Origin: Terriglobia bacterium | GTDB taxonomy: Bacteria > Acidobacteriota > Terriglobia > Acidiferrales > UBA7541 | Assembly: GCA_023512135.1 (NCBI GenBank) | Contig: JAIMAG010000002.1 | Coordinates: 1 to 64,000, forward strand | Length of the DNA: 64,000 nt | Reading direction: 5' to 3' | Shown: piece after piece, positions 3,704 to 33,130 of the stretch | Position numbering within the stretch: position 1 is the stretch's first letter | How the letters are laid out: every line of letters begins with the position of its first letter | Notes under the pieces: model-generated | What the model was told of the DNA's origin: nothing | The model's database searches: none | Seen by the model: the letters and a program-made list of their open reading frames with translations, nothing else | Position numbers and translations under genes: made by a program

Positions 3704-3809
3704 TTCCCTGGCTCGCGCTTCCATGTCCATCTGACCGACGTTGCTGATGCCCCGGGCTGGTGGCGTGCTACAGGGCACCAGCCGGCAGATACACAGCGGC
3801 GCCGCGCCC

Positions 3810-6800
3810 ATGGCCGGATTCCTGGAACGCCAACTCGGTTTGCCGCAGGAAAGACTCCGCCGCCTTTCCCACTTTGTGTTTCTCGCCGCTACGCTGCTTT
3901 GCGCGGACGTGCTGGCGATGACGCTGGCCGAGTCCTTGTTTCTGGCCAACGTCGGTGCCAACCGTCTGCCGTTGTTCTATCTGTTGCTGGCTGCTGTTTC
4001 GATTCCCGTGGCCAGCGGCTTTTCCCACCTGGTGGACCGGGTCCCGCGTCTCCGTCTGTTCCATGGGCTGCTGCTTGGTTCACTCGGCCTGGCGGTACTG
4101 CTGCGGGGAATGGCAGTGCGATCGACGTTGACCGGCTATTTCGCCCTGTACACCGGTTTCAGCGTCCTCGAACTGCTGCTGGAGATTCAGTTTTGGGTGT
4201 TAGTCTCGGACTATTTCACCTCCCTCGAGCTGAAGCGCGCAGCGACGCTGCTGGTGGCCGCGATGTCGGGCGGCGGGCTGCTCGGCGGTGCAGCGGCCAG
4301 CCTGCTGGTGGAAACGTTCACCCCGGCGACCCTGCTGTGGCTGGTCCCGCCATTCTACCTGCTGGCGATGGCACAGCTCGCTCTGCTCGGCCGTGCGCAG
4401 CGACCGCCGGAAGCTGCTGACACCGAAGAGGAACAAACAGGCATGCTGGAAAGCCTGAAAAGCTTTCCGCTGCTCGTCCGCCGCCACCCGATCGTCTGGA
4501 TGCTGGCGCTCAGCGCATTGCTGGCCCCTTTTCTGCGCTGCGTAGCCGAGTTCCAGGTGTTTTCCATCTACGAGCGGCGCTTTCCGGACGAACAGGAACT
4601 GGCTGGCTTCCTGGGGCTGTTGAGCGGAACGCTCAGTGTGCTCGAGTTTGCGGTGCTGCTGTTTTTCACCCGCCCGCTCATCCAGAAGCTGGGCGTCCAT
4701 CGCATGAACCTGATCTATCCCGTCACGACCCTGGGCAGCTTCGCCGGACTGGCCGTCAGCCATCAGCTCCCCGCTGCCATCGCAGCGAACATCAACTACG
4801 AGACCCTGGGCAACAGCATCGCCGCTCCAGTCGACACACTGAACTACAACGCCGTCCCGCGGCGGTTCCTCGGCCGCGTGCGTGGCATCACCGACGGGCT
4901 TTGCTATCCGCTGGGGATCGCCCTTGCGGGTGCATTGCTTTGGGTTGGCCAGACCGTGCTGGATTCGCTGGAAATCACGCTCGGCGCGTTGGTGTTGACT
5001 GTCGGGCTGCTGGCGCTCGGCCACGGAGTGGGCCGCCACTATCTGACCTCGCTGGTGGAAATGCTCCGTTCGCGCTCGGTGAATCTGGATGAGGTGGGCG
5101 AGGGGCTGGCGAAACTTCCACCGCAATATGCCGAGGAAGTGCGGCGCCTGTTGAAAAGTGACGACCGCAATGCACAGATTCTGGGCGTGGAGCTGGCCGC
5201 GCGCCTGAATCCCGCAGAGTTTTTGAGCGAGTTGCAGGCGCTGCTTCCTTCCGCGGATGTGCGCCTGCGCCGCGCGCTGGTCAAGCTCTATGCCGCCTTT
5301 CGCCCCGAAGGCCTCGCCGGGCAGTGGCACAGCTTGCTGGATAGCCACGAGGACGCCTCGCGCGAGCTGGCGCTCGAGCTCGCCGTGGCGGTGCCCGCGT
5401 TGCGCCAGCAATGGCTCGACCGCGAGCGGCTGGCTGCGTTGCTCCACGACCCCAGTCCGGTGGTGCGCGGATTGAGCTGCGTGGCCGCGCATCTGACTGG
5501 AGTGCGGGACGAGGAACTCGAAGCAGCCTGTGCGGCGGTGCTCGAGCAGCCGCTCGGCCCGGCGGCGCACCTGGCCATGATCCAGGCCGTGCGGAGTGCC
5601 GCGGATCCGACGCTGCTCCCGCTGCTGCGCCGCATTCTCGAGCATGCCGAACCCACTGTGCAGGACGATGCGCTGGATGCTCTGGCCAGTCTGCTGGATC
5701 GTGGCGCGCCTACCGAAGGACTGGAAGCCATCGCCGCGGACTTCCTGGACCATCCCGAAGCGCCCGTGCGTGCGGCCGCAGCCAAGCTGCTCGGTCGGAT
5801 CCGCACCGCAACGGCTGCCGAACGGCTGGGGCCGCGGCTCGAAGATACCAGCCAGAGTGTGCGCGAGCAGGCCGCTATGGCTCTGGCGGCCTGCGGAGAG
5901 GTGGCTCTGACGGTGGCCGAACCGTACCTGGCCTCACAGCGCGCGGAAGTTGTCGAAGCCGCCATCACTGCCATCGGAGCCGTACGCAGCCCTCGGGCCG
6001 AAGAGATGCTGTTCCGTTTTCTGCAGGCCGACTTCCGCCAGGTGCGCAACAACCTGTCCTGGTTGCCGCGACTCCCTGCCGATGGAGCCTGGCTACCGCT
6101 GCGCACGGCGCTCGAAGATTCCAATTTGCGAATTACGCAGCGAGTGTTGCACGTACTGGGCGCACTGGGCCATCGGCGCACACTGAACTGCGTCCGACGC
6201 ATTCTCTTCTCGACCGACGAGCGGGTGCGCGCCGATGCAGTGGAAGCGGTGGCCTCGCTCAGCCATCGTCGCTTCGTCGAGCCCATTCTGCCGCTGCTCG
6301 AAGCCCAGGCCATGGCACAGCCCCAGCGAAACGACCACCAGCACACGCCGGTGCTGCAGCAACCAGTTGCGGCGTCGGAGCTGCGCCAGATCGCTGAACA
6401 GGCGGCGACATCGGCGGATCGCTGGGTGCGTGTGGGAGGCATCCTGGCGCTGGCGGCCCTGCCAGAGCCGATGCCCGGTGCGCTGCTTCGCGAACCCGCC
6501 GACCCGCTCGTGCGCGACGCACTGCTGCACACCCTGATGCGCAAAGGTGCTCTGCGCTCCGGCCCAGGCACGGAAGCCAGTACCGAGCCTCATGTCAAGG
6601 GTGCTACCTTTTGGGATCGGAGTCTTTTCATGAACCGCGTGCTCTTCCTGAAAAATGTTCCCCTGTTCAAATTCCTTTCGCTGGACGACCTGCTCATTGT
6701 GGATCAGGCCCTCGTCCAGAAAGAATACCTGGCCGGCGAACTGATCTTCCGGGAAGGCCAGCCCGGCAGCGACCTGTGCATCATCACTGCGGGCCGCGTG

Positions 6801-7079
6801 GCGATCCGCAAGCGCGTGCAGCAGCATGAGCGCGTACTGGCCGAGCTGGGCCCGGGGGAGTGCTTTGGCGAGATGGCCCTGTTCGACGATGCGCCGCGTT
6901 CAGCCACTGCGGTAGCGGTTTCCGAGGTGACGCTATTGACCCTGGAGCGAAGCCGCTTCTTGAGCTTGACGGCCCAGCGACCCGAAATCGCTCTGGAGAT
7001 ATGCAAGGTCCTCAGCCTGCGACTGCGCGAGGCGAACGAGCAGCTCGGCCGGCTGGCCGCGGAAGCTGGCCTGACCTGA
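3810..7079 (+). CDS. MFS/nucleotide-transporter-like membrane protein with HEAT repeats and cyclic-nucleotide-binding domain
   Basis: The product is 1089 residues from the ATG at 3810. Earlier in-frame starts at 3741 (TTG) and 3747 (ATG) would add a non-hydrophobic tail. Residues 1 to about 420 hold around 12 hydrophobic segments resembling the ATP:ADP antiporter/MFS fold (LCADVLAMTLAESLFLANVGA). About 440-900 are helical HEAT-like repeats (for example PLLRRILEHAEPTVQDDALDALASLL). Residues about 945-1075 form a CRP-type cyclic-nucleotide-binding domain with a recognisable phosphate cassette, FGEMALFDDAPRSATA. No DNA-binding domain follows, so the domain should gate or tether the transporter rather than regulate transcription. 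The gene stands alone between two outer-membrane genes. Substrate and ligand are unknown. Related three-part proteins occur in several phyla, but I know of no assigned function. Confidence 0.8.
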   Translation: MAGFLERQLGLPQERLRRLSHFVFLAATLLCADVLAMTLAESLFLANVGANRLPLFYLLLAAVSIPVASGFSHLVDRVPRLRLFHGLLLGSLGLAVLLRGMAVRSTLTGYFALYTGFSVLELLLEIQFWVLVSDYFTSLELKRAATLLVAAMSGGGLLGGAAASLLVETFTPATLLWLVPPFYLLAMAQLALLGRAQRPPEAADTEEEQTGMLESLKSFPLLVRRHPIVWMLALSALLAPFLRCVAEFQVFSIYERRFPDEQELAGFLGLLSGTLSVLEFAVLLFFTRPLIQKLGVHRMNLIYPVTTLGSFAGLAVSHQLPAAIAANINYETLGNSIAAPVDTLNYNAVPRRFLGRVRGITDGLCYPLGIALAGALLWVGQTVLDSLEITLGALVLTVGLLALGHGVGRHYLTSLVEMLRSRSVNLDEVGEGLAKLPPQYAEEVRRLLKSDDRNAQILGVELAARLNPAEFLSELQALLPSADVRLRRALVKLYAAFRPEGLAGQWHSLLDSHEDASRELALELAVAVPALRQQWLDRERLAALLHDPSPVVRGLSCVAAHLTGVRDEELEAACAAVLEQPLGPAAHLAMIQAVRSAADPTLLPLLRRILEHAEPTVQDDALDALASLLDRGAPTEGLEAIAADFLDHPEAPVRAAAAKLLGRIRTATAAERLGPRLEDTSQSVREQAAMALAACGEVALTVAEPYLASQRAEVVEAAITAIGAVRSPRAEEMLFRFLQADFRQVRNNLSWLPRLPADGAWLPLRTALEDSNLRITQRVLHVLGALGHRRTLNCVRRILFSTDERVRADAVEAVASLSHRRFVEPILPLLEAQAMAQPQRNDHQHTPVLQQPVAASELRQIAEQAATSADRWVRVGGILALAALPEPMPGALLREPADPLVRDALLHTLMRKGALRSGPGTEASTEPHVKGATFWDRSLFMNRVLFLKNVPLFKFLSLDDLLIVDQALVQKEYLAGELIFREGQPGSDLCIITAGRVAIRKRVQQHERVLAELGPGECFGEMALFDDAPRSATAVAVSEVTLLTLERSRFLSLTAQRPEIALEICKVLSLRLREANEQLGRLAAEAGLT

Positions 7080-7311: not shown

Positions 7312-9060
7312 ATGAATCAGTTCGCGCTCCTGCTGCTGACCCTGTCCACGTTCGCCGGAACTGACCACCGCGTGACTTCCATTCCCCAACCTCCACAGCA
7401 GCAGAGCCAGACAGCTTCTCCCGGCCGGGTCCCCGTGGCACGGGCGGATCAGTCCACCTCAGCCGCAGAAGAGCAAAACCCGGGGCAGGCTCCGCGTCCG
7501 TCGGAGGAGACGGCTGTCGAGCAGACGGCCAGTGCGCCCCCGGCCGCACCGACGCAAAATGAAATCCGCACCGTTCCCAGCCGCTGGCGTTCGTTCGATC
7601 CCTCCGGACAACAGCCGGAGTACACCTTCCGCATCTACGACCCGTACCATCAAAATATTTTGAAAGCGGATTTCCCTCTGGTCGGGAACTGGTTTCTGGA
7701 ACTGAACGCCCTGAACACCTTTGTCTACAAATCGCGCCGCAATCTGGACTTCAGCAACGTTTTTGCCGATCAGATCAACCTCGGCAACCTGGAGTTTCAT
7801 CCCCACAATCACTTTCGCAATGAAAACCTGATTTTTGGCCTAGAGTTGCGTCGCTTCGACGACACCTTCTTCCCCTCCGACTTCCGCATCCGGTTGAACG
7901 GTGTGTTCGACTACCGCGCCGACCTGAATGCATTCCTGCGCAACTCGAATACGGAACCATTTCTGTTCGATGCCTTCGTGGATGTGAAACTGCATGATTT
8001 CGGCGGCGACGAAGATGGCCGCGACAATTTCGATCTGCTGTTCCTGCGCGGCGGCGTTCAGGGCTTTCGATCCGATTTCCACGGCCTCATTTTCAACGAC
8101 GTGGGTTTGGGCGGCCGACTGTTCGGCGAGCTGCAACGCAACCGGCTGCGGTACGATTTCCTCTGGCTGAAGCTGTTTCAGAAAGACCCCGCCACGGGCT
8201 TCATCTCATTTTCGCGACCGAGTGCACACAATGTCGCGATCGGCCGACTCACCTGGGAGGATTTCCTGGTGCTCGGCTGGAACAGCGAATGGTCGTTCCA
8301 CTACAACCGCGAGCGGAGAAAAATCGGGGGCGGGCCGCTCGAGCAACAGCACGACACGTTCTACTGGGGCGCTACGTTCAACGGTCGGCTCGGGCGGGTG
8401 GAATTCAATCCCGCGCTCTATGCGGTGCACGGCAGTGCGGACCAGGTCGTCGGCGGCGCGCCCGTGGAGCACTCCGTCGCCGCGCTTCTGTTTCTGCTCG
8501 ATGTGCGGTACCCGCTGGACTACTGGAAATTCCGCGCGGGCTATCTGTTCGCATCGGGCGACGGCGATCCCGCGGATCTGCGCGACACCGGCTTCGATGC
8601 CATCAGCGACGGCGTGGTGCTGTTCGGCGGGCCGCTCAGTTACTGGACGGGCGAAAACATCCGTTTCGGCCGCGGTGACTTCGTGCGCGCCAACAGCGTG
8701 TTCCCCTCGCTGCGCGGTGCGAACGATCCGGCCAATTACATCAACCCGGGTATCCAGATTCTGAACGTGGGCGCTGACGTTGTCCTCTCGCCGCGGCTGG
8801 AGTTCAGCGGCAATTTCAACTACCTGCGGTTTGTCAAACTCGGGGCTTACACAAACCGCGTCGTCATCAGCAATCGTTCTGCTGGATTTGAAGAAAATTT
8901 CTTTTTGCGCATCAAGCCCTTTCTGCGTGAGGCGAACCAGAATGTGCTGTTGGACGTCGGCTTCAGCGTGCTGCACGCGCAGCAGGGCTTGCAGAGTGCG
9001 TTCCAGACCACCCAGGGTACGGTCTATTCCAGTTTCCTGGCCCTGCGGCTGGTGTACTGA
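7312..9060 (+). CDS. Outer-membrane beta-barrel (porin-like) protein encoded with a decahaem cytochrome
   Basis: The product has 582 residues. It has a short signal peptide (MNQFALLLLTLSTFAGT) and a Pro/Gln/Ala-rich spacer to about residue 90. A long domain follows with alternating aromatic and charged residues typical of beta-strands (NWFLELNALNTFVYKSRRNL; FRAGYLFASGDGDPADLRDTG). The C-terminus LRLVY ends in an aromatic residue, as expected for BAM-inserted barrels. The middle and end resemble alginate-export/porin-family barrels. The cytochrome gene starts 17 bases downstream, so co-transcription is very likely. A barrel paired with a secreted multihaem cytochrome is the core arrangement of porin-cytochrome electron conduits, so it may be the sheath of such a conduit. 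A plain porin is the alternative. Confidence 0.75.
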   Translation: MNQFALLLLTLSTFAGTDHRVTSIPQPPQQQSQTASPGRVPVARADQSTSAAEEQNPGQAPRPSEETAVEQTASAPPAAPTQNEIRTVPSRWRSFDPSGQQPEYTFRIYDPYHQNILKADFPLVGNWFLELNALNTFVYKSRRNLDFSNVFADQINLGNLEFHPHNHFRNENLIFGLELRRFDDTFFPSDFRIRLNGVFDYRADLNAFLRNSNTEPFLFDAFVDVKLHDFGGDEDGRDNFDLLFLRGGVQGFRSDFHGLIFNDVGLGGRLFGELQRNRLRYDFLWLKLFQKDPATGFISFSRPSAHNVAIGRLTWEDFLVLGWNSEWSFHYNRERRKIGGGPLEQQHDTFYWGATFNGRLGRVEFNPALYAVHGSADQVVGGAPVEHSVAALLFLLDVRYPLDYWKFRAGYLFASGDGDPADLRDTGFDAISDGVVLFGGPLSYWTGENIRFGRGDFVRANSVFPSLRGANDPANYINPGIQILNVGADVVLSPRLEFSGNFNYLRFVKLGAYTNRVVISNRSAGFEENFFLRIKPFLREANQNVLLDVGFSVLHAQQGLQSAFQTTQGTVYSSFLALRLVY

Positions 9061-9077
9061 GGCAACGGGAAAAGATC

Positions 9078-12000
9078 ATGCGGCGACCACTGCAGATTCT
9101 AACAACGCTGCTCACGGGTATGCTGCTGTGGCCGGCTGCCCGCCCGGGGCTCGCAGGGCCGCAGCAGCAGCTGACCACGGGCGCCGATTCGCGCGCCTGT
9201 CTGGACTGCCATATCGGCATCGAGCGGATGCACGCCTTTCCGGAAAAAATGTCTGCGGAAGACCGGGCGAAATACGACCGGGGCATGGATCGCGTCGGGC
9301 TAACCTGCGTGGATTGTCATGGCGGCAACGGTACCGCCACGGGCAGTCAGGCAGGCGAGCGAGAATACCGCGCTTATCTAGAAGCCGCGCACGTGCTTCC
9401 GCGCAACCGGAAGCTGTTTCGGAATTCCGCCAATCCACCGGATAGCTACGCCGCGCTGAACCGGGAATCGCCGGAATTCGTCCGTTTTCTGAATCCTTCC
9501 GACTTCCGCATCGCCGACCGCACCTGTGGCCAGTGCCATCGGGAAATCCTCTCGGCCATGCGGATGTCGGTGATGTCGCACAACGCCATGGCCCACGGCG
9601 CCGTGTTCTACAACAACGGAGCGTTCGAGCGGAAGCAGGCACTCTACGGCGAAGCGTACGATGAGCAGGGCAATCCGGCAGAACTCGTGGACAGCGAAAT
9701 CAGCGAAGGGGCCCGTCGCCACGGCGCCATCGAGCGGTTGGTGCCGCATCCCAGCTTCCCCATCACGCGCGTCAAGGACCCGCTGCGCGTTGCCGAGGTG
9801 AACAACCCGGCGCTCGGGGTTCGCGGGCCGGGCACCGACGGCCGGATCGCCGGCGTCTTCCTGAACGTGCTGAAGACGCGGCTGAACGACCCGACGCTGT
9901 GGCTTCTCGGCTCCAATCGCATTGCCGGCGACTACCGCAGTTCGGGCTGTGCTGCCTGCCACGTCATCTACGCGAACGATGGCGAACCCGACAGCTCCGC
10001 GATGTTTGCCGTCTACGGCAACCGCGGCACCTCGCAGTCCAACGACGCTGCGCTCCGCCGCGTGCTGGTCGGGGATCGTGCCGACGAACCCGGTCATCCC
10101 ATCCGACACACCCTCGAGCTGCGCATCCCGGCCTCGCAGTGCCTGACCTGCCATTACCATCAAGGGGACGGAGCCATCGGCAGCTATCTCGGCCGGATCT
10201 GGTGGGACCGGGAAAGCGACGCTGAAAAAGTCAAGCAGATCGGCGCGGAGCCCGAATACGGTCGGATCGACCCGGCCACCCGGCGCTACGTGCAGGAGCG
10301 CCTGGCGGAATTCAACAAGGAATTTCAACTTGTCCAGTTCAGCGATTTCCATGCGCACGGCTGGAACTTCACGCGAGTCTATCTGCAGGATGAGCGCGGC
10401 CGCATGCTGGACGCCGCCGGCCAGCCAATCGCTCCCGACGACCCGCTGAAGTGGCTCAAGGGCGTGCACCTGCGCGACATCCATCTGGAAAAAGGCATGT
10501 CCTGCATCGACTGCCACACCACGCAGGACACCCACGGCGACGGCAACATCTACCCGCAGATGACCGACTACATCGAAATTCGCTGCGTGGATTGTCACGG
10601 GACCGTCAATCGCCGCTCGGACCTGAAAACCAGCGGCCATCCCTGGCGCCGCAACGACCTGACCCAGTACAACACACCCTGGCGCGACCCCAGAACGGGT
10701 GAGAAGCTGAAACAGTTCTATGTGGACCCGGCCACTGGCCGCATCTACCAGCGCTCGCGGCTCCATCCGGGGCTGGAGTGGGAAGTGACCCAACTGGTGG
10801 ACGTGGTCAATCCGTCCTCGCGCGACTACTCCCCGAAGGCTGCGTATGCCAAGCTGGTCCAGCGCGACGGCAGCGTGCACCTGGGGGCCGCCGGAGAAAA
10901 TCTGGCGCACAGCTACGAGCGGATGGAATGTACCACCTGTCATTCTTCCTGGCAGACCACCTGCTCCGGCTGTCATCTGCCGCTTGATCTGAACGTGAAG
11001 TCGAAGGACAAACATTACGAAGATCGCTTTTCGCGTGGCTATGCGCCGTATTACCGGCAGGTCATTCGCACCGACCTGCATTTCTTCGGTATCGGCACGA
11101 CGAACCACGGCAACAAGATCACCCCATTCCGTCCGGCCAGTGCCGTGATCGTCTCCGCCTGGGACCGCAACCGGAACAACATCGTGCATCAGCAGCCGCT
11201 GGTCAGCTCGCCGGGCTTCGCCAACGAAGCGATGACGCCGCACCCGCCGCACACGGTACGCAAGACCGAAACGCGCACCTGCTCCGACTGCCACCTGAAC
11301 GAGGCGGGCAGCAACAACGCGCGCATCGCGGCCGCGCTCGGCTACGGTGTGAACGCGCTCACCTTCATGGGCACCTACGTCTATGTGGCCGAGCAGGGCC
11401 GGGGCGTGACGGCGGTCGAGGTCACCGAAGGCCGCGAGCCCATGCCAGTCATCGGCTCGAATTTCCACCGCGTTCTGCATCCGCAGAGCTACGACCAATT
11501 CGTGCGTGGCGGACGAAAGCTCCGCACCGCCTACACGCGCCGCGCACCCCGGGTGGTTTCGGTGGCTACCCGCGGCGAATACCTGCTCGCCGCGGAAGGT
11601 TCCGACGGGCTGAAGCTCTACGACGTGGCGAACATCAACAACAAATCGGTCGCGCAGCGTATCGTGCAGGCCGTGAATTCACCGCTGGGGGAGGCTACCC
11701 GTGTTCCGTTGCCGGATGCGACCTTCGTCCATCTGCCGGTTTCATTGCCCGTGCACGTCGGGCGCGAAGACCGCCGCGCGTTGAACCGGCAGCTCTCCGT
11801 GCCCGAAATCCGCCGCCTGAACGGCGAGCAGGAATTCCATGAGCTGTACCGCTACGCGCTGGTCGCCGACCGCCAGCTTGGACTGGTGCTGGTGGATATC
11901 GACACGCTGACCGATGCCGACCCCGAAAATAACAGGCTCCGTGCGGATGTGGTGTTCGACGGCGGAGGCGCACTGCGGGGCGCCCGGATGGTGAAAAACT

Positions 12001-12878
12001 GGGGCCACTACGCACTCGTCGCCAGCGAACAGACCGGATTGCAGGTGGTGGATTTGCGCATCCCCACGGCGCCCCGGCTGGTGCGCCAGCCGCCCGAGGT
12101 GGCTGCCGCACTGAAGGGCGCACGCGGACTGGAACTGCAACTGTTCTACGCGTTCGTGATCGATTCCGAAGGCCTGAAGGTGTTCCGCCTGCGCGAATTC
12201 CAGCAGGATTTGCTGCTCGAGCCGGTGCCGGGCGCAATGATTCCGCTGGCGGATGCCCGGGGACTGACGATTTCGCGCACTTATCTTTACATCGCCGGCG
12301 GACGCGACGGACTGGTCATCGTGGACATCGAGCGGCCCGAAGCCCCGCGCCTGTTCGAGTACGACAAATCGCAGGTGCCGCTCAGCGATGCCTACGACGT
12401 CGCTGTCGCGACGACGAACGTGAGCTACTTCGCCTATGTCGCCGACGGCCGCAACGGCCTGGCCGTGGTGCGCTTGCTCGAGCCGCCCGATACGCCGGGC
12501 TATGCCGGCTTCGCCCCTGCCCCAATGCCGAAACTGATTGCGACGCGGCCCATGAAGGGTGTTGCTGTTGGTGTTTCGCGCGGACAGATTCGCGACCGCT
12601 ATGTGGACGAATCGGGCCATCAGATTGCCGTCACCAACCGGATCGGTTCGCGTCCGCTGAACCGCGACGAGATGCGTCGCATGCTCTACTACCCGGACGG
12701 CAGCCCGCTGCGCGTGCGCGACGAGTTCCCGGTCGAACTGCGCCACGAACATGTCTCCACCGGCAAGCGCCTTGCGCTGCCCGGCAGCCCCGCTCAGCAG
12801 TCGCGTTCGGTCGCCACGCACGGCGGCGCTGCAACACCTTCCCGGCCGACTGAACCGGGAATCACTCCGCGCCGATGA
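9078..12878 (+). CDS. Secreted decahaem c-type cytochrome with C-terminal LVIVD beta-propeller
   Basis: The product is 1266 residues with a signal peptide (MRRPLQILTTLLTGMLLWPA... GLAG). Ten CXXCH motifs are visible between residues 41 and 739: CLDCH, CVDCH, CGQCH, CAACH, CLTCH, CIDCH, CVDCH, CTTCH, CSGCH and CSDCH. After the last, residues about 745-1170 carry repeats of the LVIVD type (YVAEQGRGVTAVEV, YALVADRQLGLVLVDI, YALVASEQTGLQVVDL, YIAGGRDGLVIVDI, YVADGRNGLAVVRL), which should fold as a beta-propeller. A charged low-complexity tail ends the protein. It should act in the periplasm or on the cell surface as a multi-electron carrier, with the propeller as a docking or binding module. It lies between an outer-membrane barrel and a Tat-exported flavoprotein, all in one direction. 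Confidence 0.92.
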   Translation: MRRPLQILTTLLTGMLLWPAARPGLAGPQQQLTTGADSRACLDCHIGIERMHAFPEKMSAEDRAKYDRGMDRVGLTCVDCHGGNGTATGSQAGEREYRAYLEAAHVLPRNRKLFRNSANPPDSYAALNRESPEFVRFLNPSDFRIADRTCGQCHREILSAMRMSVMSHNAMAHGAVFYNNGAFERKQALYGEAYDEQGNPAELVDSEISEGARRHGAIERLVPHPSFPITRVKDPLRVAEVNNPALGVRGPGTDGRIAGVFLNVLKTRLNDPTLWLLGSNRIAGDYRSSGCAACHVIYANDGEPDSSAMFAVYGNRGTSQSNDAALRRVLVGDRADEPGHPIRHTLELRIPASQCLTCHYHQGDGAIGSYLGRIWWDRESDAEKVKQIGAEPEYGRIDPATRRYVQERLAEFNKEFQLVQFSDFHAHGWNFTRVYLQDERGRMLDAAGQPIAPDDPLKWLKGVHLRDIHLEKGMSCIDCHTTQDTHGDGNIYPQMTDYIEIRCVDCHGTVNRRSDLKTSGHPWRRNDLTQYNTPWRDPRTGEKLKQFYVDPATGRIYQRSRLHPGLEWEVTQLVDVVNPSSRDYSPKAAYAKLVQRDGSVHLGAAGENLAHSYERMECTTCHSSWQTTCSGCHLPLDLNVKSKDKHYEDRFSRGYAPYYRQVIRTDLHFFGIGTTNHGNKITPFRPASAVIVSAWDRNRNNIVHQQPLVSSPGFANEAMTPHPPHTVRKTETRTCSDCHLNEAGSNNARIAAALGYGVNALTFMGTYVYVAEQGRGVTAVEVTEGREPMPVIGSNFHRVLHPQSYDQFVRGGRKLRTAYTRRAPRVVSVATRGEYLLAAEGSDGLKLYDVANINNKSVAQRIVQAVNSPLGEATRVPLPDATFVHLPVSLPVHVGREDRRALNRQLSVPEIRRLNGEQEFHELYRYALVADRQLGLVLVDIDTLTDADPENNRLRADVVFDGGGALRGARMVKNWGHYALVASEQTGLQVVDLRIPTAPRLVRQPPEVAAALKGARGLELQLFYAFVIDSEGLKVFRLREFQQDLLLEPVPGAMIPLADARGLTISRTYLYIAGGRDGLVIVDIERPEAPRLFEYDKSQVPLSDAYDVAVATTNVSYFAYVADGRNGLAVVRLLEPPDTPGYAGFAPAPMPKLIATRPMKGVAVGVSRGQIRDRYVDESGHQIAVTNRIGSRPLNRDEMRRMLYYPDGSPLRVRDEFPVELRHEHVSTGKRLALPGSPAQQSRSVATHGGAATPSRPTEPGITPRR

Positions 12879-12913
12879 AGAGAGCCGAGGTCCGGAAAAG
12901 ATGAGGAGTCTGC

Positions 12914-14710
12914 ATGGTTGACCGTACCCACAATCCCTCGCGCCGGCGGTTCCTGGGCGGGCTGGCCGTGCTGGGCGCTGCGCCGCTGGCCGGCCGGCTG
13001 GAGGCTCTGCCCCAGGTGCACCACAACCGCTGGTCGGGCGATCATTTCGATGAAGGCCACGACCGGCTGCGCAATCCGCGCGCCTGGTGGGAGCAGCTCG
13101 CCGCACAGGGACGCACGCAGAATGTCGAAGGTCTTTTCGATGTCATCATCATCGGTGGCGGGATCAGCGGCCTGACCGTTGCCTACCGGCTCGCCCGGCG
13201 GAATCCCCATCTGCGCCTGCTGCTGCTCGAGCGCGAAAAAGAAACCGGCGGCGTCTCGAAAAGCGAAAACTGGAACGGTATCGAATACTCGATTGGCGCC
13301 GCCTACATGGTCAACCCGGAGCCACCCGAAGACGACGACCCCGAGCATCCCTCGCAGGAGCGGCTCAACCTCGACCTGCTGATCGAGCTCGGCCTGCGCG
13401 AAGAAGAGGAAGAACTGGAAGCGTGCAACGACAAGCAGCGCCGCTGGGCCACCCACCACAACCATGTGGTTTTCACGCGCCAGCGGGTACTCAACGACGA
13501 AGAAGTGCTGACCGCCGAGAATGTTCGTTTTTTTGAAACCGTCGCAGAAAGCGACCGCTTTCCTTCGATCCCGCCCGAAGACCCGTGGCTCGTGCAGAAG
13601 CTGGACACCATCAGCTTCCAGGAATTCCTCCGCAACTCTGACCTCCAGCGGGAACTCTACGGCCTCGCCGTGGGCGAGATTCCTCCTGCGGGCTGGGAGT
13701 CCATCGAATACTATTTCTGGGGCGCGTTCGGTACGAACACCTGGGAAACTTCCGCCTATCATGGCTTGAACTTCTACGCGGCAGAGTTCACCCGCCTGCT
13801 GGTGTTTCCGGGAGGCAATGCCTTCATTGCCAAGCGGCTCACCGAACGCATCCGCAGTATAGACGAGCGGCTGATTTCGACGGGCAGCTACGTGCTGCTG
13901 GCCGAGCCCGCCGCCGGCGAGCAGGGGCAACGCTACTGGCAGGTCAAGGTGGAGCGCCGTCAGGGCGGCAGTCGCGGCTATCTGTACCGCACGCGCGCGG
14001 TCGTGTTCGCCTCACCGATATTTCTGGCCAAGCGCATGCTGCCTTCGCTCCCGCTGGAGCAGATGCAAGCACTGGAGCAGCTCGATTACCGCAGCTTCGT
14101 CGTCGCCAATGTGCTGCTGACGCCTCCGATGCGGGAGATCTTCGGCGAAAGCACGATCCTGCACAGCTACGAAATGCAGCGAGCCCAGGGCACCGACCCG
14201 CGCCACCATCCTCCGGATGTGCTTTCGCAGCGAAATGTTTTTTCTGATGTCGTCAACGCGACCTTTGCCGTCTGCAGCGAACGCCAGCCGCATACCATCC
14301 TGACCGTCTACCGCCCCTATCCCTACGCCGCGGGCCGCGAGTTGCTGCGCTATCTGACCTATGAGTACGTCGAAGCCGAAATTCGCAAAGCGGTGCTGGA
14401 AGCCTACGGCGCACACGGACTGAAACCCGAACACATCCACGAAATTCGCCTGGCGCGCTGGGGACATCCGATGATCATCCCCCGTCCCGGACAACTCGCC
14501 GGTGGCCTGATGGAGCTGTGCCGCCGCGGCCAGCCCGGGCTGTTTTTTTCCCACACGGACATCTTCGGTGCACCGGCGATTGAAAATGCGCTGGCCGCTG
14601 CACATGCGGCGGTGCGCGACGTGGAAACCTACCTCGGTCGCAGCGAAGCTGCCCGCAGGGATGCAGTGTCGCTCTCGCGCACCTGTCCCACGGGTCAGTC
14701 CAGCACCTGA
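12914..14710 (+). CDS. Tat-exported FAD-dependent oxidoreductase (amine-oxidase/NAD(P)-binding Rossmann fold)
   Basis: The product has 598 residues from an ATG with GAGGAG about 8 bases upstream. A twin-arginine signal (SRRRFLGGLAV, residues 9-19) directs the folded flavoprotein to the periplasm. The FAD-binding Rossmann motif is DVIIIGGGISGLTVAYRLA (about 76-94), followed by the acidic ribose-binding strand LLLLEREKETGG. The C-terminal part (GLFFSHTDIFGAPAIENALAAAHAAV) is the usual closing FAD-contact segment of this superfamily. Relatives include amine oxidases, phytoene desaturases and protoporphyrinogen oxidases; the substrate cannot be assigned. Its position right after the decahaem cytochrome suggests it passes electrons to that cytochrome. 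Confidence 0.85.
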   Translation: MVDRTHNPSRRRFLGGLAVLGAAPLAGRLEALPQVHHNRWSGDHFDEGHDRLRNPRAWWEQLAAQGRTQNVEGLFDVIIIGGGISGLTVAYRLARRNPHLRLLLLEREKETGGVSKSENWNGIEYSIGAAYMVNPEPPEDDDPEHPSQERLNLDLLIELGLREEEEELEACNDKQRRWATHHNHVVFTRQRVLNDEEVLTAENVRFFETVAESDRFPSIPPEDPWLVQKLDTISFQEFLRNSDLQRELYGLAVGEIPPAGWESIEYYFWGAFGTNTWETSAYHGLNFYAAEFTRLLVFPGGNAFIAKRLTERIRSIDERLISTGSYVLLAEPAAGEQGQRYWQVKVERRQGGSRGYLYRTRAVVFASPIFLAKRMLPSLPLEQMQALEQLDYRSFVVANVLLTPPMREIFGESTILHSYEMQRAQGTDPRHHPPDVLSQRNVFSDVVNATFAVCSERQPHTILTVYRPYPYAAGRELLRYLTYEYVEAEIRKAVLEAYGAHGLKPEHIHEIRLARWGHPMIIPRPGQLAGGLMELCRRGQPGLFFSHTDIFGAPAIENALAAAHAAVRDVETYLGRSEAARRDAVSLSRTCPTGQSST

Positions 14711-14727
14711 ACAAAAAATGCACTCTT

Positions 14728-14748
14728 CGGCAGTCGTCCGCGCTGCCG
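14728..14748 (+). terminator. Weak stem-loop after the flavoprotein gene
   Basis: CGGCAG and CTGCCG form a 6-bp stem with a 9-base loop, followed by the T-rich ATTCCTTCT. The stem is short, so termination would be partial. Confidence 0.35.
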
Positions 14749-14874
14749 ATTCCTTCTATGCTGGCCTCGAACACGCCAGGGCGCGCTGGGGAGGGACACA
14801 CTCCATCCGGGTCGCGTCAGGCAACTGGCAACGGACGTGGCGGGCAAGACGCCGCGCCCTGGCCTGTTGACCCC

Positions 14875-15370: not shown

Positions 15371-15424
15371 CAGGGGGCACGGAGCCCTCACTCTGCTCCC
15401 ACTGCCTCACCTCCGTGCTCCCTG
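15371..15424. repeat. Long inverted repeat (14-bp stem with one G-U pair)
   Basis: CAGGG-G-GCACGGAG (15371-15384) pairs with CTCCGTGC-T-CCCTG (15411-15424), leaving a 26-base pyrimidine-rich loop. It lies in the 240-base gap between the TPR gene and the LPPGL gene. No T-run follows, so it is not a classic intrinsic terminator. It could be a Rho-associated end, an mRNA 3' stabiliser or a structured leader. Confidence 0.6.
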
Positions 15425-15576
15425 TGGCCCGGTGTTCAAAGCCGACTTCGACTGGACGGAACGCCGATGGGGTCAACACGCACCGGCACTGTTGCAACGG
15501 ACGAACAGTACTATTGTCCCGAACAAAACTCCGTTGGATGCTGGGCTTCAGCACGGCAAGCAGGGAGGTAAGAACG

Positions 15577-16047
15577 ATGTCGATTCACTGGATGAAAGTC
15601 GTGGCCTTGGCGGCCGGCCTGGCTGCAGGTGGAGTGATGATTGCCCAGAAGTCCAAGCCGCAGACCAGCACAACAACAACACAGCAGACCGAAGAGAAGG
15701 GAATCGGGGGTCGCATCAAAGAGGCATTGCCGAAATCCGAGCCGGTATTCACCGAACACGAGCGCGTGCTGATCAAAGACTGGTTCCGGGTGCACGGTCG
15801 TAAGGGTTTGCCGCCCGGTTTGGCCAAGCGCGACCGGTTGCCGCCCGGGCTGGAAAAGCAGCTCCGCGAACGCGGCACGCTGCCGCCCGGGTTGCAAAAG
15901 AAACTGCATCCGCTGCCGATCGAGCTCGAACGCCAACTGCACCGACTGCCCACCGGCTACAAGCGGGTCATCCTCGGCGGCAACATTATCCTGATGGAAG
16001 AGAAGACCGCGGTCATCTACGACATCATCCGCGATGTGATTCTCTGA
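15577..16047 (+). CDS. Exported or membrane-anchored LPPGL-repeat protein (RcnB/CigR-like)
   Basis: The product has 156 residues. The ATG at 15577 has GGGAGG (15563-15568) at good spacing. An N-terminal hydrophobic segment (KVVALAAGLAAGGVMIA) is followed by a Thr/Gln-rich stretch. Three LPPGL motifs come next (GLPPGLAKR, RLPPGLEKQ, TLPPGLQKK), then two degenerate copies (HPLPIELERQ, HRLPTGYKR). The protein ends VILGGNIILMEEKTAVIYDIIRDVIL, the small beta-hairpin seen in RcnB/CigR-like periplasmic proteins. Members have been linked to metal or antimicrobial stress, but the mechanism is unclear. A strong terminator follows. Confidence 0.7.
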   Translation: MSIHWMKVVALAAGLAAGGVMIAQKSKPQTSTTTTQQTEEKGIGGRIKEALPKSEPVFTEHERVLIKDWFRVHGRKGLPPGLAKRDRLPPGLEKQLRERGTLPPGLQKKLHPLPIELERQLHRLPTGYKRVILGGNIILMEEKTAVIYDIIRDVIL

Positions 16048-27467: not shown

Positions 27468-29345
27468 TCAATAGGGCGTGCGGATGTGGTCTTTGCCGTG
27501 GCAGCGCAACGAACACGTGCCCTGGCGAAAGCCGGTGCGTCGGTATTCGAGTGCGCCCAGGCTGTTCGGCCCCACGACGCTGAGGTCGAAGTTGATGAGC
27601 ATGGGTGTGCTCGAAGCGTGCGGATCGTGGCAGGTAGAACAAGCCGCATTCTGGTCGCGAATGTGTTTTCGGTGTTCGGGAAAACTCTGGTCTCGGAGCA
27701 CACTGCCTTCGACGTCGTGGCATTTGTTGCATAGAGCATATTCTTCCAGTGCGTAGCTGACCCCTGGTGTGAACTCACCCGGGTACGCGGGGGGAGGTTC
27801 GAGAGCGTTGGCCCGTTCGAGCAGGTGGGGCTGGTTCGAGCCGTGCGGGCCGGTGGGGCCGCTCAGCGTGCCCAGGTTTCGTCCGGTGTCGTTGTTGTGA
27901 CAATCCGTGCAGTAGATGTAGCTGGTGGGCGAAAGCGTGCGACGGGGCAAGGGTGCACCGGCGGGCGTGACCGGTGCGCTGCGCAGGCTCGGGACCTCGC
28001 CGCCCGGGCCGATGGACAGGTTCCGGGGCCGCGTCACCGGATGATAGGAAAGCAACATGTGGAATTCGATCCGTGTGTTGAACGCTTCGGGATTGCCGAG
28101 GTCGTGTTGCCGCAGCGGGTTGCGTCCGTATCCGATACCGCTGCCGGTCGCATCGTTTCGCTGGGGTTTGTTGACGCTGTCCGCATGACATTTGAAGCAG
28201 ATTTCGAACTCGTTCGCGCTCCGGGACAGATGATCTCCGGAGGAAGAATAGCCGCGTACGCCGGTGAGCGAACCGGAGACATTGGGCGGTTGGGCTTCTG
28301 TGGCGGTGGCAGCGTGGGGATTGTGACAATCGGCGCATTCGACGTGCCGCGGTGTGGCGAGGCTGGTCTCGGGCAACGGGTGCCGCGCCGAAGCGGGAGC
28401 TTCCGCAGCGTCGTGCACGGAAGGAGTCACGCTGACGGGATGGGTGTACAGCTTGCTCTGAAATTCTGCGCGTATGTTGCGTGCGGTTGTGGCGACCGAA
28501 CCGTCATGGCAGGTGTAACAGACCTGCTCTTCTGGGAATTTCAACAGTCTTTGCCCGACCTGCGGGGCGTGGGGCCGATGACAACTTTCGCAGCCGTTGT
28601 TGCTGACGCCCAAATAGCCGGTGTGCGCGCCCTGCGCCTCGGTGTAGCGCAGGTTGGCGACCGGATCGGGTGGCGTCCGGTGCGAGGAGTGCAGCCAGCC
28701 CGCCGTCCTGTGGCAGCTCAGGCAAAGCGCAGAAGCCGGATTCGGCTTGACCAAAAATTTGCCCACCGCCGGGTCGCGCCACTCCTCGTGCGGTTCGTGG
28801 CAGGAGGTGCATTGCAATCGACCGCGTGCATCCAGCCGCACTGCGTCACCGGGCGGCGGCATCTGGATTTCCGGGCCGGGCACAGGCACAAACGCATACG
28901 GATGATCGTCAGAAAATCCCTGTCCGGCAGCCAGATTGGCCGCCGATTCGGGCGGCAGGGTGTACCCGCGACCTTGGACAAACTCCAGCATACCGCTGCT
29001 GATCGTTTCGCCGAGCGCAATCGTCCCGTCGTGGCAGCTCAGGCAAAGTTTTGAGGCGTCCTCCGCGGTCATCGGTCCGATGGACGCCGCCAGCGTGCTA
29101 CTCGAATAAACGGGGAACGGCTGCGCGGGGAGCGGGCGATTCCAGAGCCTTTCGGCTGGATTGGCATTGTGCGGCGTATGGCAGAACACACAGGCATCCG
29201 CAGTGTCCACTGCGCGAGTGGGTGCCCGGGACGTGGCGCGAAAATCATGCCGGGAGTTCAGCAGTTGCGACTTTCGATCCGCTGGCTGGGCAGTCGCGAC
29301 CGGTGCCACGAGCAGGAGGAAGACGAAAAGGAAGCGGGCGCGCAT
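27468..29345 (-). CDS. Dodecahaem c-type cytochrome, exported
   Basis: The product is 625 residues from MRARFLFV, one base after the stop of the upstream NHL gene. A signal peptide ends near VATAQ (residue 20). Eleven CXXCH motifs (CVFCH, CLSCH, CTSCH, CLSCH, CESCH, CYTCH, CADCH, CFKCH, CTDCH, CNKCH, CSTCH) and one CX3CH near the C-terminus (CSLRCH, about 611-616) give up to 12 haems. Repeated doublets CxxCHxPH resemble Geobacter-type Doubled_CXXCH cytochromes. It is the last gene of an operon with a barrel and two smaller cytochromes, so it is a candidate surface or barrel-embedded electron carrier. Confidence 0.93.
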   Translation of the reverse strand: MRARFLFVFLLLVAPVATAQPADRKSQLLNSRHDFRATSRAPTRAVDTADACVFCHTPHNANPAERLWNRPLPAQPFPVYSSSTLAASIGPMTAEDASKLCLSCHDGTIALGETISSGMLEFVQGRGYTLPPESAANLAAGQGFSDDHPYAFVPVPGPEIQMPPPGDAVRLDARGRLQCTSCHEPHEEWRDPAVGKFLVKPNPASALCLSCHRTAGWLHSSHRTPPDPVANLRYTEAQGAHTGYLGVSNNGCESCHRPHAPQVGQRLLKFPEEQVCYTCHDGSVATTARNIRAEFQSKLYTHPVSVTPSVHDAAEAPASARHPLPETSLATPRHVECADCHNPHAATATEAQPPNVSGSLTGVRGYSSSGDHLSRSANEFEICFKCHADSVNKPQRNDATGSGIGYGRNPLRQHDLGNPEAFNTRIEFHMLLSYHPVTRPRNLSIGPGGEVPSLRSAPVTPAGAPLPRRTLSPTSYIYCTDCHNNDTGRNLGTLSGPTGPHGSNQPHLLERANALEPPPAYPGEFTPGVSYALEEYALCNKCHDVEGSVLRDQSFPEHRKHIRDQNAACSTCHDPHASSTPMLINFDLSVVGPNSLGALEYRRTGFRQGTCSLRCHGKDHIRTPY

Positions 29346-29346
29346 C

Positions 29347-30414
29347 TCATTCCACTCCACCGACCGACGGCGCGCGTATGCGGAATATTTGCACGCGACG
29401 ATTGAAGCTGTCGGCGACCAGCACCCGTTCATCGTTGGTCGTCGCGATGCCTGCCGGCAGGAAGAATTCTCCCGGGCCGGTACCCGTGTTTCCGAACACA
29501 AGCTGCGGCTCGCCGCGGGCCGAAAAGACGAGCACGCGGTCGTGGCGCGCTTCGACCACATAGACGCGGCCAGCGCGATCGACCGCGACACCTTTCACTT
29601 TGTCCAGGTCGGTCCGGCCGGTGCCGAGCTGGCCGAACGCGCCCAGGAAACGGCCCTGACTATCCAGGTGTTGCACGCGGAAATTCAGCGAATCAGCAAT
29701 CCAGAGAGTTCCATCGCGATCCACGGCGATATGCGTGGGATAGTTGAATTCGGCCGGACCCGTGCCGCGTCGGCCGAAGCGGGCGAGCGGCTCGCCGTGC
29801 AGACTCAGCACGACGATGCGCATGGCCTGCGTGTCCACGACGTAAAGGCGACGGCGCTCGGCATCGATGGCCAGGCCGGTCGGGCGGTGAAACACACTTT
29901 CTTGCCGGTTCAGACCGCCCAGGGTGCGTAGGAATTTCCCTTCGCTGGTGAACACGAAGATTCGCGCCCGGAGCGCATCGGAGACGTAGACGCGGCCTTC
30001 GGCATCGCAGGCTATGGCAATCGGAGCCAGCATGGGTTCGCGGTCGGGCGCATGGAACAGGCTGTAGGACTTGCGCACCGGATCGAACCGATGGACGGCG
30101 CGGAGCCTCGTGTCGGCTACCCAGATGCGGCCCCGGGAGTCCACACAAACGCCGTGCGGCTGGAGCATCGCGGGTCGCTGAGACTCAGCGCCCACCAGCG
30201 TGCGCAGCAGGCGCTTCCACCACGGCGCCTCTCCCATCACATCGCGCGGGGTGCGCAGTTCGGCGACCCATTCGACGGAAACACTCGCGGGACCCGTTGC
30301 CGAATCGGTCTGGGCCAGGAGGGCTGCCGGCAACAGAAACACCAGTGCCATTCGGCAACCGAGCCTCTGGCGCCGGCGATGCTTCGATGTCCGTTGTTTG
30401 CTGTCAGGGCGCAT
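29347..30414 (-). CDS. Exported NHL-repeat beta-propeller protein
   Basis: The product is 355 residues. The ATG overlaps the stop of the barrel gene (TGATG arrangement). The basic N-terminus and hydrophobic stretch MALVFLLPAALLAQ form a signal peptide. Six or so NHL-type blades follow, for example LQPHGVCVDSRGRIWVADT, FHRPTGLAIDAERRRLYVVDT, FNYPTHIAVDRDGTLWIADS, VKGVAVDRAGRVYVVEA and FLPAGIATTNDERVLVADSFNRRV. It has no haem motif. NHL proteins frequently accompany multihaem cytochromes and barrels in metal-reducing bacteria; a docking or assembly role is inferred. It is paralogous to the NHL gene at 33131-34198. Confidence 0.85.
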   Translation of the reverse strand: MRPDSKQRTSKHRRRQRLGCRMALVFLLPAALLAQTDSATGPASVSVEWVAELRTPRDVMGEAPWWKRLLRTLVGAESQRPAMLQPHGVCVDSRGRIWVADTRLRAVHRFDPVRKSYSLFHAPDREPMLAPIAIACDAEGRVYVSDALRARIFVFTSEGKFLRTLGGLNRQESVFHRPTGLAIDAERRRLYVVDTQAMRIVVLSLHGEPLARFGRRGTGPAEFNYPTHIAVDRDGTLWIADSLNFRVQHLDSQGRFLGAFGQLGTGRTDLDKVKGVAVDRAGRVYVVEARHDRVLVFSARGEPQLVFGNTGTGPGEFFLPAGIATTNDERVLVADSFNRRVQIFRIRAPSVGGVE

Positions 30415-32264
30415 CAGAACACTGTGAACTCGCGCATCAGGCGCAGGTGGAAACGACGAATCCGCAGCCCGCTGCTTGCATTCGGCAGAGTGATGGTGGT
30501 TCGATACTGTGCCCAGCCACTTTCCAGGGTGACTTTTGCCAATCGGTAGCGTGCCCACAGTTCGAGAATTTGGAACCGTTGGTCTGAATGCGCAAACAGG
30601 TTGTGCTCGGTACGCCATTGTGCGTTGAAATCGAGCTGTTGCCGCGGGCGCAGCACCCACTGCAGGACGGTGCTGCGGGTGGTGCGCTCGAGCAGCGGTG
30701 AAGCAAGCAGTTGCTCGACAGGCAGCGGCTGCGTCAGGCGCAGTCGCGGCACCACACCGGCAGGAAACAGTGCTCCCGCTCCTTCGCCGAAGGTTCGACC
30801 GGCAGAAAAGGAGAGTCGGCGATGGTGCACCTGGAGACCCAGATGGGTCTGCTCGGTTTCTGTGCGTCCGCTCAGGTTCAGCAGTACAATCTTGGTGTTC
30901 TCGGCCCAGGCTTGCAGGCGAAATGGCTGCAGCCAGTCGCTCTGCGCTTCCAGGCGTAGTCGCCGGTCTTCCGAAAACCCATTCAACTGTTCGACGAGAT
31001 TCAGTTTCCCGTATCGAACCGACCCGGACAGCCGTACCGAACGCAACTGCCCCCAGTTGATCCGGCCTTCGATGTCATTGGAGAACGTGTGGGCCCGGGC
31101 GCCGCGCGTGGTGCGAATCGCTTGCAGCCGTCCGATGTAGCTGGCAGAAAGCTCGATGCCGCGCCAGTGGGTGCGATAGTTCACTCCGCTGAGCGATTCG
31201 GTCAGCGTCTTGCGTACCTCGAGTTCCGTTTCCGGCGGACGGGTGTAAAAGTAGCGCAGGTCCTGGAACAGAGTGAACTGCCGGGTCCACCGGTACTCGA
31301 GCCGGGCACTGACCAGATGGGCTGTGAACGTCGGCGTCCGAAGTAACCCGAACGGCACTTCGACGCGAAAGCGTTCCTGGAGCTCGGTGCGCACGATGTT
31401 GTAGCCCGCGCTTGCACGGAACTGCTCCGTCGGCTGCAAAACCAGGATGACACTGGTGTAGGTTTCGCTGGCAGTCGACACCGCACCGTTCAGAAACCGG
31501 TTCCGGCGCCACTGCGAGCGATGATCGGCGCGGAAGTCGGCTTTCGTATCCCAGAACAACCGGCGCACGCCGCCGCTGAGCACGCGCAGGGTTTCGTGAA
31601 AGTTTGCGGGAAGATCAATGCCGGCAAAGAAGTCGGAGCGAGTTTCATAGTCGTCGAACCCGAATTCCCATTGCCAGCCGCGCCTGTCGTCCCGCAGACT
31701 CACAAAGCGGTGCTCCTGCAGATAATCGCTGTCGGTCAGGCTGGTGGCCAGCCGCACATGATTGCTGGAGCGAAGATAACCCGCCTGGAGATAGGGAAGG
31801 CTGGACTGGCGAACCGTCCATTCCACTCCCAGAATGCTGGAATCGCTATTCTGTCCGAAGACAGTTCCGCTGCTGTCGTAGCTGGTACGATTGTAGAAAA
31901 AACGCAGCGGGAAGGGACGGGACGGAAGCAACGTAGTCGAAATTCCCCAGTTGAACAGTGTGCGTAGATAGCCATTCGCATCCACTTCGTGGGCGCCGTA
32001 GCTGTTGCTGAAATGGGCTGTGAACGGCAGAAACGCGGGGTCGCTGAGAAAGCCGGAGAGGTGGAGGCGATAATCGCCCGCGAGCGCGTGGTAGGAGGAT
32101 CGCGAGGCCGGCGCCGCGCGGGGCGTATTGCGACTCTGCACCAGTTGCAATCCAAGCGCCCCATGCATGCGCCAGCGTTCAGCCGCTGGCTGTTGCGCCG
32201 ACGCGGTCAGAGCACCCGCGCAGAGAATCGCCACTCCACCCACGATGGCTTTTGCAGCGCACAT
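30414..32264 (-). CDS. Outer-membrane beta-barrel protein in multihaem cytochrome operon (porin-cytochrome type)
   Basis: The product is 616 residues from MCAAKAIV; an ATG at 32309 would add 15. The signal peptide ends about TASAQQ. The rest alternates hydrophobic and polar residues with many aromatic and arginine residues (FPLRFFYNRTSYDSSGT; FRASAGYNIVRTELQERFRVEV; FTLFQDLRYFYTRP), as in large barrels. The C-terminus RLMREFTVF ends in Phe, the BAM recognition signature. I count roughly 20 or more possible strands by eye. Gene order resembles porin-cytochrome conduits (MtrB, PioB or OmbB analogues), although no MtrB-specific CXXC is seen near the N-terminus. It probably sheathes one of the neighbouring cytochromes. 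Confidence 0.8.
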   Translation of the reverse strand: MCAAKAIVGGVAILCAGALTASAQQPAAERWRMHGALGLQLVQSRNTPRAAPASRSSYHALAGDYRLHLSGFLSDPAFLPFTAHFSNSYGAHEVDANGYLRTLFNWGISTTLLPSRPFPLRFFYNRTSYDSSGTVFGQNSDSSILGVEWTVRQSSLPYLQAGYLRSSNHVRLATSLTDSDYLQEHRFVSLRDDRRGWQWEFGFDDYETRSDFFAGIDLPANFHETLRVLSGGVRRLFWDTKADFRADHRSQWRRNRFLNGAVSTASETYTSVILVLQPTEQFRASAGYNIVRTELQERFRVEVPFGLLRTPTFTAHLVSARLEYRWTRQFTLFQDLRYFYTRPPETELEVRKTLTESLSGVNYRTHWRGIELSASYIGRLQAIRTTRGARAHTFSNDIEGRINWGQLRSVRLSGSVRYGKLNLVEQLNGFSEDRRLRLEAQSDWLQPFRLQAWAENTKIVLLNLSGRTETEQTHLGLQVHHRRLSFSAGRTFGEGAGALFPAGVVPRLRLTQPLPVEQLLASPLLERTTRSTVLQWVLRPRQQLDFNAQWRTEHNLFAHSDQRFQILELWARYRLAKVTLESGWAQYRTTITLPNASSGLRIRRFHLRLMREFTVF

Positions 32265-32320
32265 CCGTTTTGCTACTCGACTCAACCCGCTCTCCAGCTC
32301 TGGCCCCATGCGCCGTGTGG

Positions 32321-32354: not shown

Positions 32355-32358
32355 GCCG

Positions 32359-33042: not shown

Positions 33043-33112
33043 CAGAACCTCCGAACGTGAAATGGGAATGCATCGTGTGGGTTGGCTCGGTTTGTGAAGA
33101 CGCACCTCCTTC

Positions 33113-33129: not shown

Positions 33130-33130
33130 T

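Follow-up and report, generated by a model that had tools for sequence, protein, structure and literature searches.

Three adjoining genes in the genome of a Terriglobia bacterium raise the question of whether an outer-membrane barrel and a large multihaem cytochrome form a conduit for electrons, and whether the flavoprotein encoded behind them belongs to the same path. The genes lie in tandem on the plus strand at positions 7312-14710 of the window, by which we mean the whole stretch of DNA analysed (64,000 nucleotides, positions 1 to 64,000 of contig JAIMAG010000002.1, assembly GCA_023512135.1), with gaps of 17 and 35 bases between them. A preliminary description of this DNA had named them as a barrel gene, a gene for a 1266-residue decahaem cytochrome ending in an LVIVD propeller, and a gene for a twin-arginine translocation (Tat)-type flavin adenine dinucleotide (FAD) oxidoreductase, all in one direction, and this layout was confirmed with exact coordinates. 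On balance, the barrel (B) and the cytochrome (A) probably make up the outer-membrane part of a porin-cytochrome system that is widespread and moves electrons between the periplasm and the cell surface. The features of the locus are as follows.

7312..9060, plus strand: barrel gene B, 582 aa without cysteine; predicted AlgE-like 18-strand outer-membrane barrel
7663..9057, plus strand: barrel domain proper of B, residues 118-582 of the model; the preceding part is mostly disordered
9078..12878, plus strand: gene A for the decahaem-LVIVD cytochrome, 1266 aa with a Sec-type start and without a lipobox
9156..11357, plus strand: decahaem domain of A, residues ~27-760, from motifs, conservation and model
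9198..9212, plus strand: haem motif 1, CLDCH (all ten motifs by motif scan)
9306..9320, plus strand: haem motif 2, CVDCH
9525..9539, plus strand: haem motif 3, CGQCH; CX3-4CH in many relatives
9948..9962, plus strand: haem motif 4, CAACH
10140..10154, plus strand: haem motif 5, CLTCH
10503..10517, plus strand: haem motif 6, CIDCH
10584..10598, plus strand: haem motif 7, CVDCH
10929..10943, plus strand: haem motif 8, CTTCH
10962..10976, plus strand: haem motif 9, CSGCH
11280..11294, plus strand: haem motif 10, CSDCH
11370..12593, plus strand: C-terminal LVIVD beta-propeller of A, residues ~765-1172; PF08309; seven blades in the model
12914..14710, plus strand: Tat-type FAD oxidoreductase gene, 598 aa; likely on the same transcript, linked to A only in the window's genus
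14727..14749, plus strand: terminator-like hairpin 3' of the FAD gene; weak, as such sites are fewer in the region than in shuffles

A decahaem-propeller cytochrome recurring across genomes

The ten CXXCH motifs of A take up all 20 of its cysteines, and shuffled versions of A contained 0.008 motifs on average and one at most. All ten haem sites are kept throughout two alignments of the family, A1 (39 members) and A9 (35 members), with the third written as CX3-4CH in some sequences, and the ten sites are present in 120 of 124 A proteins; nine CXXCH plus one CX3-4CH variant were counted in 28 of the 124, and eight plus two in 3. Across the 35 diverse members of A9, twelve histidines outside the motifs are at least 90% conserved, nine of them in every member, providing enough distal ligands for ten haems. 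All ten haems of A are probably bis-histidine ligated and six-coordinate, as judged from these residues. A lipobox-like cysteine precedes the first haem in just 11 of the 124 proteins, and A was rejected as a lipoprotein.

The C-terminus of A matches the LVIVD family PF08309 with 51.3 bits (cut-off 20.2), and the same family is found in 35 of 35 A-family members at E 0.001. An AlphaFold2 model of residues 27-1226, built from 63 sequences (mean predicted local distance difference test score, pLDDT, 82.3; predicted template-modelling score 0.87), shows seven blades in this region, which aligns to seven-bladed propellers with Z 30.2 for the best alignment and 29.6 for the next. Propeller matches fill the list when the PDB is searched with the whole model, and the domain resembles lactonase-type and YVTN propellers. 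The haem domain has a partial similarity to ExtM (NF040943), seen within its second half in 35 of 35 members; for the window's A the score of 84.1 bits is far under the cut-off of 800.

The fusion of haem domain and propeller had been called unusual in the preliminary description, a view that the distribution of A does not bear out. A matches were found at E 1e-10 in 50 of 396 genomes of the phylum, which E-value and coverage divide into 42 near-full-length matches (the window's own genome included) and 8 partial ones, and the fusion is present in all 80 of the best named-genome loci, kept from at least 556 candidate relatives. Of the 41 further phylum genomes in which A had a long match, 38 supplied loci. 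An assembly artefact is ruled out by this recurrence and by a 91% identical copy of A in the same genus (genome G396), where it is split over two contigs.

Two pairs of named loci are duplicates (L078 equals L056, and L080 equals L055), and a third named locus, L069, lies by position on the same contig as G396:C170 of the window's genus; its record title (Bacillota bacterium HOT.MB2.40) looks wrong. Metagenome-assembled genome (MAG) records titled Bordetella parapertussis and Klebsiella pneumoniae (L098 and L136) also carry the cluster. These titles probably mislabel environmental MAGs and say nothing on those pathogens.

Pairing of the barrel with the cytochrome

A homologue of B lies upstream of A on the same strand, within 1500 bases, in 111 of 118 loci (37 of 38 from the phylum and 74 of 80 from named genomes), or in 109 of 116 once the two duplicates are removed. 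Spacing is mostly within ~40 bases, and the two genes often overlap. The single miss in the phylum, L045, does have the barrel in L008, a shorter sequence fetched from that place, and five of the six misses among named loci have at most 611 bases upstream of A. Distances among A proteins also follow distances among their B partners, with a correlation of r 0.896 over 102 loci, the best of 1000 permutations reaching 0.10. This comparison left out L078 and L080 as duplicates, L045, L049, and loci with A at or below 1400 bits or a B open reading frame (ORF) of at most 500 aa. As shared descent adds to the correlation, it is support and not proof. Read from gene order and co-variation, B and A are an old, stable unit across many phyla.

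Pairing this strict also suits a reading in which B is dedicated to the secretion or assembly of A, bringing it to the cell surface, and is not an electron channel, as does the exporter function of AlgE, whose fold B is predicted to share. Folding and haem attachment of c-type cytochromes take place in the periplasm. A would fold and receive its haems there, and an 18-strand pore should be too small for a propeller once folded; barrels that bear haems of their own, described below, point in addition to redox use. We regard a secretion role as very improbable.

A predicted 18-strand barrel of AlgE-like fold

The B model, built from 66 sequences (mean pLDDT 75.8, with 238 residues at or above 90), has 18 long strands starting at residue 127, and its first 74 residues are disordered. 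The best Foldseek match is the alginate exporter AlgE (E 5e-17). VIA-align superposes the two with Z 27 and a root mean square deviation of ~3 A over 363-372 residues, at an identity of 12-13%, and the next fold matches are OprD/Occ channels (Z 23-26). MtrB is not among the best 50 fold matches listed for B, which excludes nothing. A search of the window's B against Pfam gave no family up to E 1, and a PDB sequence search with the B profile gave no match at E 1. The alginate export family PF13372 is touched weakly by 5 of the 66 B members (best E 0.00087), and the window's B has no family at E 0.01. The preliminary description had weighed the conduit against a match to a well-characterised solute porin family; such a likeness exists in fold, while by sequence the window's B belongs to no porin family.

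When inward and outward positions were assigned by hydrophilicity parity, those facing inward were more conserved (2.96 vs 2.34) and included 31 conserved charged residues or histidines. A conserved charged lumen in a fold like that of AlgE and the OprD/Occ channels favors another reading, in which B is a channel for a substrate or product of A, A is a periplasmic multihaem redox enzyme, and no electrons cross the outer membrane. It would also fit that a lactonase-type or YVTN-like propeller could bind a ligand, and that eight-haem nitrite reductase is matched by a short part of the A profile (E 0.00083). The additional conserved histidines, ten or more in number, suggest that all haems are six-coordinate and argue the other way. 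So do four of 108 barrels (L031, L066, L067 and L068) whose N-terminal domain bears four CXXCH motifs and in L067, the only one of the four that was scanned, is c3-like. In these fusions electron carriers are built onto the barrel, and the tetrahaem domain should lie on its periplasmic side. Other B members carry a CarboxypepD_reg domain (9 of 66) or an SH3 domain (4 of 66). The predicted AlgE/Occ fold keeps the periplasmic enzyme with a solute channel alive as the chief rival to the conduit, although we hold it to be rather unlikely.

The flavoprotein as a companion within one genus

The N-terminus of the FAD protein reads SRRRFLGG, seen directly, and PF10518 (TAT_signal) scores 19.1 bits there, under its cut-off of 22.7. 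The protein matches FAD/NAD-binding and amine-oxidase families in Pfam, and in the PDB only residues 9-121 find a match, to spermidine dehydrogenase 7d9j (E 7.4e-06). At E 1e-20, homologues occur in three of 392 phylum genomes, namely that of the window, G116 and G356, and the latter two are not among the A-bearing genomes of the phylum. One of their two homologues adjoins fructose-bisphosphatase-like and FeoB-like genes, as read from sequence. No homologue was found in the 118 A-bearing loci at E 0.01. The FAD gene adjoins A in the window's genus only, in both of its genomes; in G396 the end of A and the FAD gene share one contig in the same order. Lacking in the other A loci and adjoining A in this genus alone, the flavoprotein is a genus-level companion.

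A complete electron path through the three genes, from flavoprotein to cytochrome to barrel, had been suggested in the preliminary description, which counted a lack of co-conservation of the three genes as refuting it. The part concerning B and A stands, as the two belong together and sit in electron-chain operons elsewhere; the flavoprotein as feeder is not supported, and membership in the conserved system is ruled out for it by its distribution. The refuting condition thus holds for the flavoprotein and not for the pair. A path in which the Tat flavoprotein oxidizes a periplasmic substrate and passes electrons through A and B to the outside would agree with the 35-base gap and the hairpin after the FAD gene, with the adjacency of the genes in both genomes of the genus, and with the export of both A and the flavoprotein. 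Against this, the homologue is missing from every one of the 118 A loci, and the two other matches in the phylum are in genomes without A; we hold such a path to be improbable. Judged by its distribution, the flavoprotein is a lineage-specific companion of the B-A pair.

Electron-chain partners in relatives and a pared-down form in the window

In relatives, the pair is often accompanied by further redox genes. Partners were scored with limits of 80 bits for C, 200 for D, 200 for E, 150 for F, 200 for G and 150 for K; among the 80 named loci, many of them short, C was found in 50, F in 47, D in 52 and G in 47. The C1 protein has two cyclic-nucleotide domains and 4Fe-4S clusters, and in Steroidobacter it is fused to a pyridine-nucleotide oxidoreductase. 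C2 is a membrane protein with at least two HX13H motifs in 57 of 57 ORFs (those of 240-480 aa with more than 80 bits and at least three hydrophobic stretches were taken), and its consensus contains two WX3HX13H motifs and SGXXG. F combines a forkhead-associated (FHA) domain with ten haems, G has four haems and is c554-like, and D has HbpS-like domains; D as a lipoprotein (25 of 73) is not general. The cyclic-nucleotide and FHA domains on chain proteins (C1 and F, as in L119) suggest signal control of the chain. From its predicted components, the partner set of the relatives is an envelope-spanning electron chain, and an NAD(P)H/ferredoxin protein, a two-b-haem protein, an FHA-decahaem protein and a tetrahaem cytochrome in one set point to electron export. 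This chain from inner membrane to periplasm also stands against the periplasmic enzyme, though it could feed a periplasmic reductase too.

The window's genome is 97.4% complete and the other genome of the genus, G396, is 90% complete. D has no match in the window's genome with a profile that finds it in the control genomes G029, G042 and G389. Full-length F was not found there either (best E 6.8e-05), the same profile giving E 4.5e-99 to 1.2e-105 in G029, G042 and G254, controls from outside the profile. C2 (profile A8) has no match in the window's genome or in G396, with E 1.9e-53 to 3.2e-91 in G071, G029 and G042. C1 and G gave partial matches only in the window's genome, in searches run without separate controls. 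Profile searches of G396 likewise returned no D and no full-length F. The genus appears, from these searches, to have kept or acquired B-A alone, as a pared-down form of the system.

A tree built from 44 cytochromes places the window and G396 beside G071, a genome from a different family, and joins these next to Planctomycetota, all starred; members of the window's own family lie elsewhere, with other acidobacteria. The tree is unrooted and was made by a quick method with no mixture model, from 44 of 45 rows, L069 being under the 1400-bit limit. The tree makes transfer between lineages likely.

A possible electron path

The conduit draws on gene order, haem motifs, conservation and synteny, which were seen directly, and on predicted folds of both proteins, from which docking, the haem path and the direction of flow would be deduced. 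A would be exported unfolded by Sec, receive its haems in the periplasm and dock on the periplasmic face of B, with the propeller possibly serving as a docking or partner-binding domain. Part of the haem chain would then reach into or up to the lumen of B, letting electrons cross between the periplasm and the surface of the cell. The NAD(P)H/ferredoxin protein, the two-b-haem membrane protein, the FHA-decahaem protein and the tetrahaem cytochrome would complete this chain in many relatives; in the window's genus, other periplasmic carriers would have to supply or receive the electrons.

Several points weigh against such a conduit. The best fold match of B is a polysaccharide exporter, followed by solute porins. 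According to the models, a decahaem domain of ~730 residues would have little room in an 18-strand barrel, leaving the crossing of the haem chain unexplained, and the folded propeller should not pass through such a barrel. No outer-surface cytochrome was seen beside B-A, the planctomycete locus L072 has A without B despite 6405 bases upstream, and searches of the window's genome did not turn up the usual partners in the inner membrane and periplasm.

We tentatively propose a broader scheme, which is possible and falls short of being probable. B-A would be the outer-membrane end of a distinct, phylum-crossing class of electron chain that spans the envelope. Its narrow AlgE-type barrel and decahaem-propeller protein would be fed by cytoplasmic NAD(P)H, first via a ferredoxin protein that senses cyclic nucleotides, then via a membrane protein with two b haems and a decahaem cytochrome under FHA control, in carriers not known for metal respiration. 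Regulated extracellular electron transfer would then be ordinary in many heterotrophs, and the window would hold the smallest version.

Should B-A prove to be a conduit, genes for extracellular electron transfer are present in Proteobacteria, Acidobacteriota, Planctomycetota, Verrucomicrobiota, Ignavibacteriota and others. The carriers would include, by their record titles, the cultured Steroidobacter agaridevorans, Parahaliea maris and Tsuneonella rigui, which would bring the system within reach of tests in common laboratory strains. With 18 strands, B would further demonstrate that conduits can do without a sheath as large as MtrB, and the pared-down form in the window would indicate that the pair alone is worth keeping.

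Genomic surroundings

A promoter scan of the region found no promoter. Cytochrome oxidase genes (COX1 at 16196) follow downstream of the operon, and then further cytochrome genes; the c-type motifs nearest to the operon are those of the oxidase cluster, from 17794 on. Between the FAD gene and the oxidase genes, positions 15415-16047 encode a CigR-family-like protein (46.7 bits, cut-off 78). A single protein encoded at 3741-7079 joins a major facilitator superfamily-type membrane part to HEAT repeats and a cyclic-nucleotide-binding domain, and at 48304-49953 a cytochrome c domain is joined to a periplasmic-binding-protein domain.

A second multihaem set lies on the minus strand at 27468-34920. 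It comprises a 707-aa protein that has doubled-CXXCH domains, a 752-aa ORF with no family match, an NHL-propeller protein that is ScyF-like (189.8 bits vs a cut-off of 350) and a cytochrome of 241 aa in which seven motifs were counted. This is probably the set that the preliminary description took as its first conduit. A relationship between B and the other possible barrel of the window (30414-32672) was rejected, hhalign finding no match (probability 0.7%).

Comparison with known systems

Among known systems, MtrAB, MtoAB and PioAB likewise pair a decahaem cytochrome with an outer-membrane barrel. MtrA is several times smaller than A, which ends in a propeller. The barrel in those systems has 26 strands (PMC10654088), against 18 in the B model. 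In favor of the conduit, ExtB has 18 predicted transmembrane segments and belongs to a conduit cluster of Geobacter that takes part in metal reduction (PMC6148476). The likeness of A to Geobacter ExtM is local, and the ExtM model, with 599 positions, is too short for a haem domain plus propeller. AlgE shares its 18-strand fold with the B model; the two differ in the low identity, in the absence of PF13372 from the window's B, and in the partner, which is a cytochrome and not a set of alginate genes. Searches of the open-licence PubMed Central literature found no paper on an LVIVD-multihaem cytochrome protein, those on LVIVD repeats being judged by title and the opening of the abstract, and nothing joining alginate export, multihaem cytochrome and porin, absences that are weak given this open-licence scope.

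PCC3 and PCC4, described from iron-oxidizer genomes by He and others (2017), have inner-membrane proteins with two WX3HX13H motifs and SGXXG, and PCC4 has periplasmic cytochromes of 4, 5 and 10 haems (PMC5566968). The C2 of our relatives shares WX3HX13H twice and SGXXG, along with a pfam13247 Fe-S protein and a tetrahaem cytochrome, whereas the relatives' cytochromes have 4, 10 and 10 haems in this comparison by description. The window differs further in having B-A only, with one cytochrome in the operon and no C2 match.

The closest system is group 1 of the porin-cytochrome clusters reported from karst MAGs in June 2026 (PMC13264449), in which a decahaem gene of 4-5 kb lies beside a porin of ~20 strands in 11 clusters, with a ferredoxin-NADP reductase near 7 of the 11 and a further c-type cytochrome in the vicinity. 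The carriers of the paper's clusters overall are mostly Gammaproteobacteria or Acidobacteriota. The window has a decahaem gene of 3.8 kb placed 17 bases from a predicted 18-strand barrel, and it differs in having the FAD gene in the operon instead of a reductase. Propeller, fold and ligand set are not named in the accessible part of PMC13264449, and the two were compared by description only; on that basis, the B-A system is very likely the group 1 system. The core pair is thus already briefly in print (PMC13264449), and what appears to go beyond that account, as far as it is accessible, is the propeller, the fold, the ligand set, the haem-bearing barrels, the breadth of distribution and the pared-down form with a flavoprotein.

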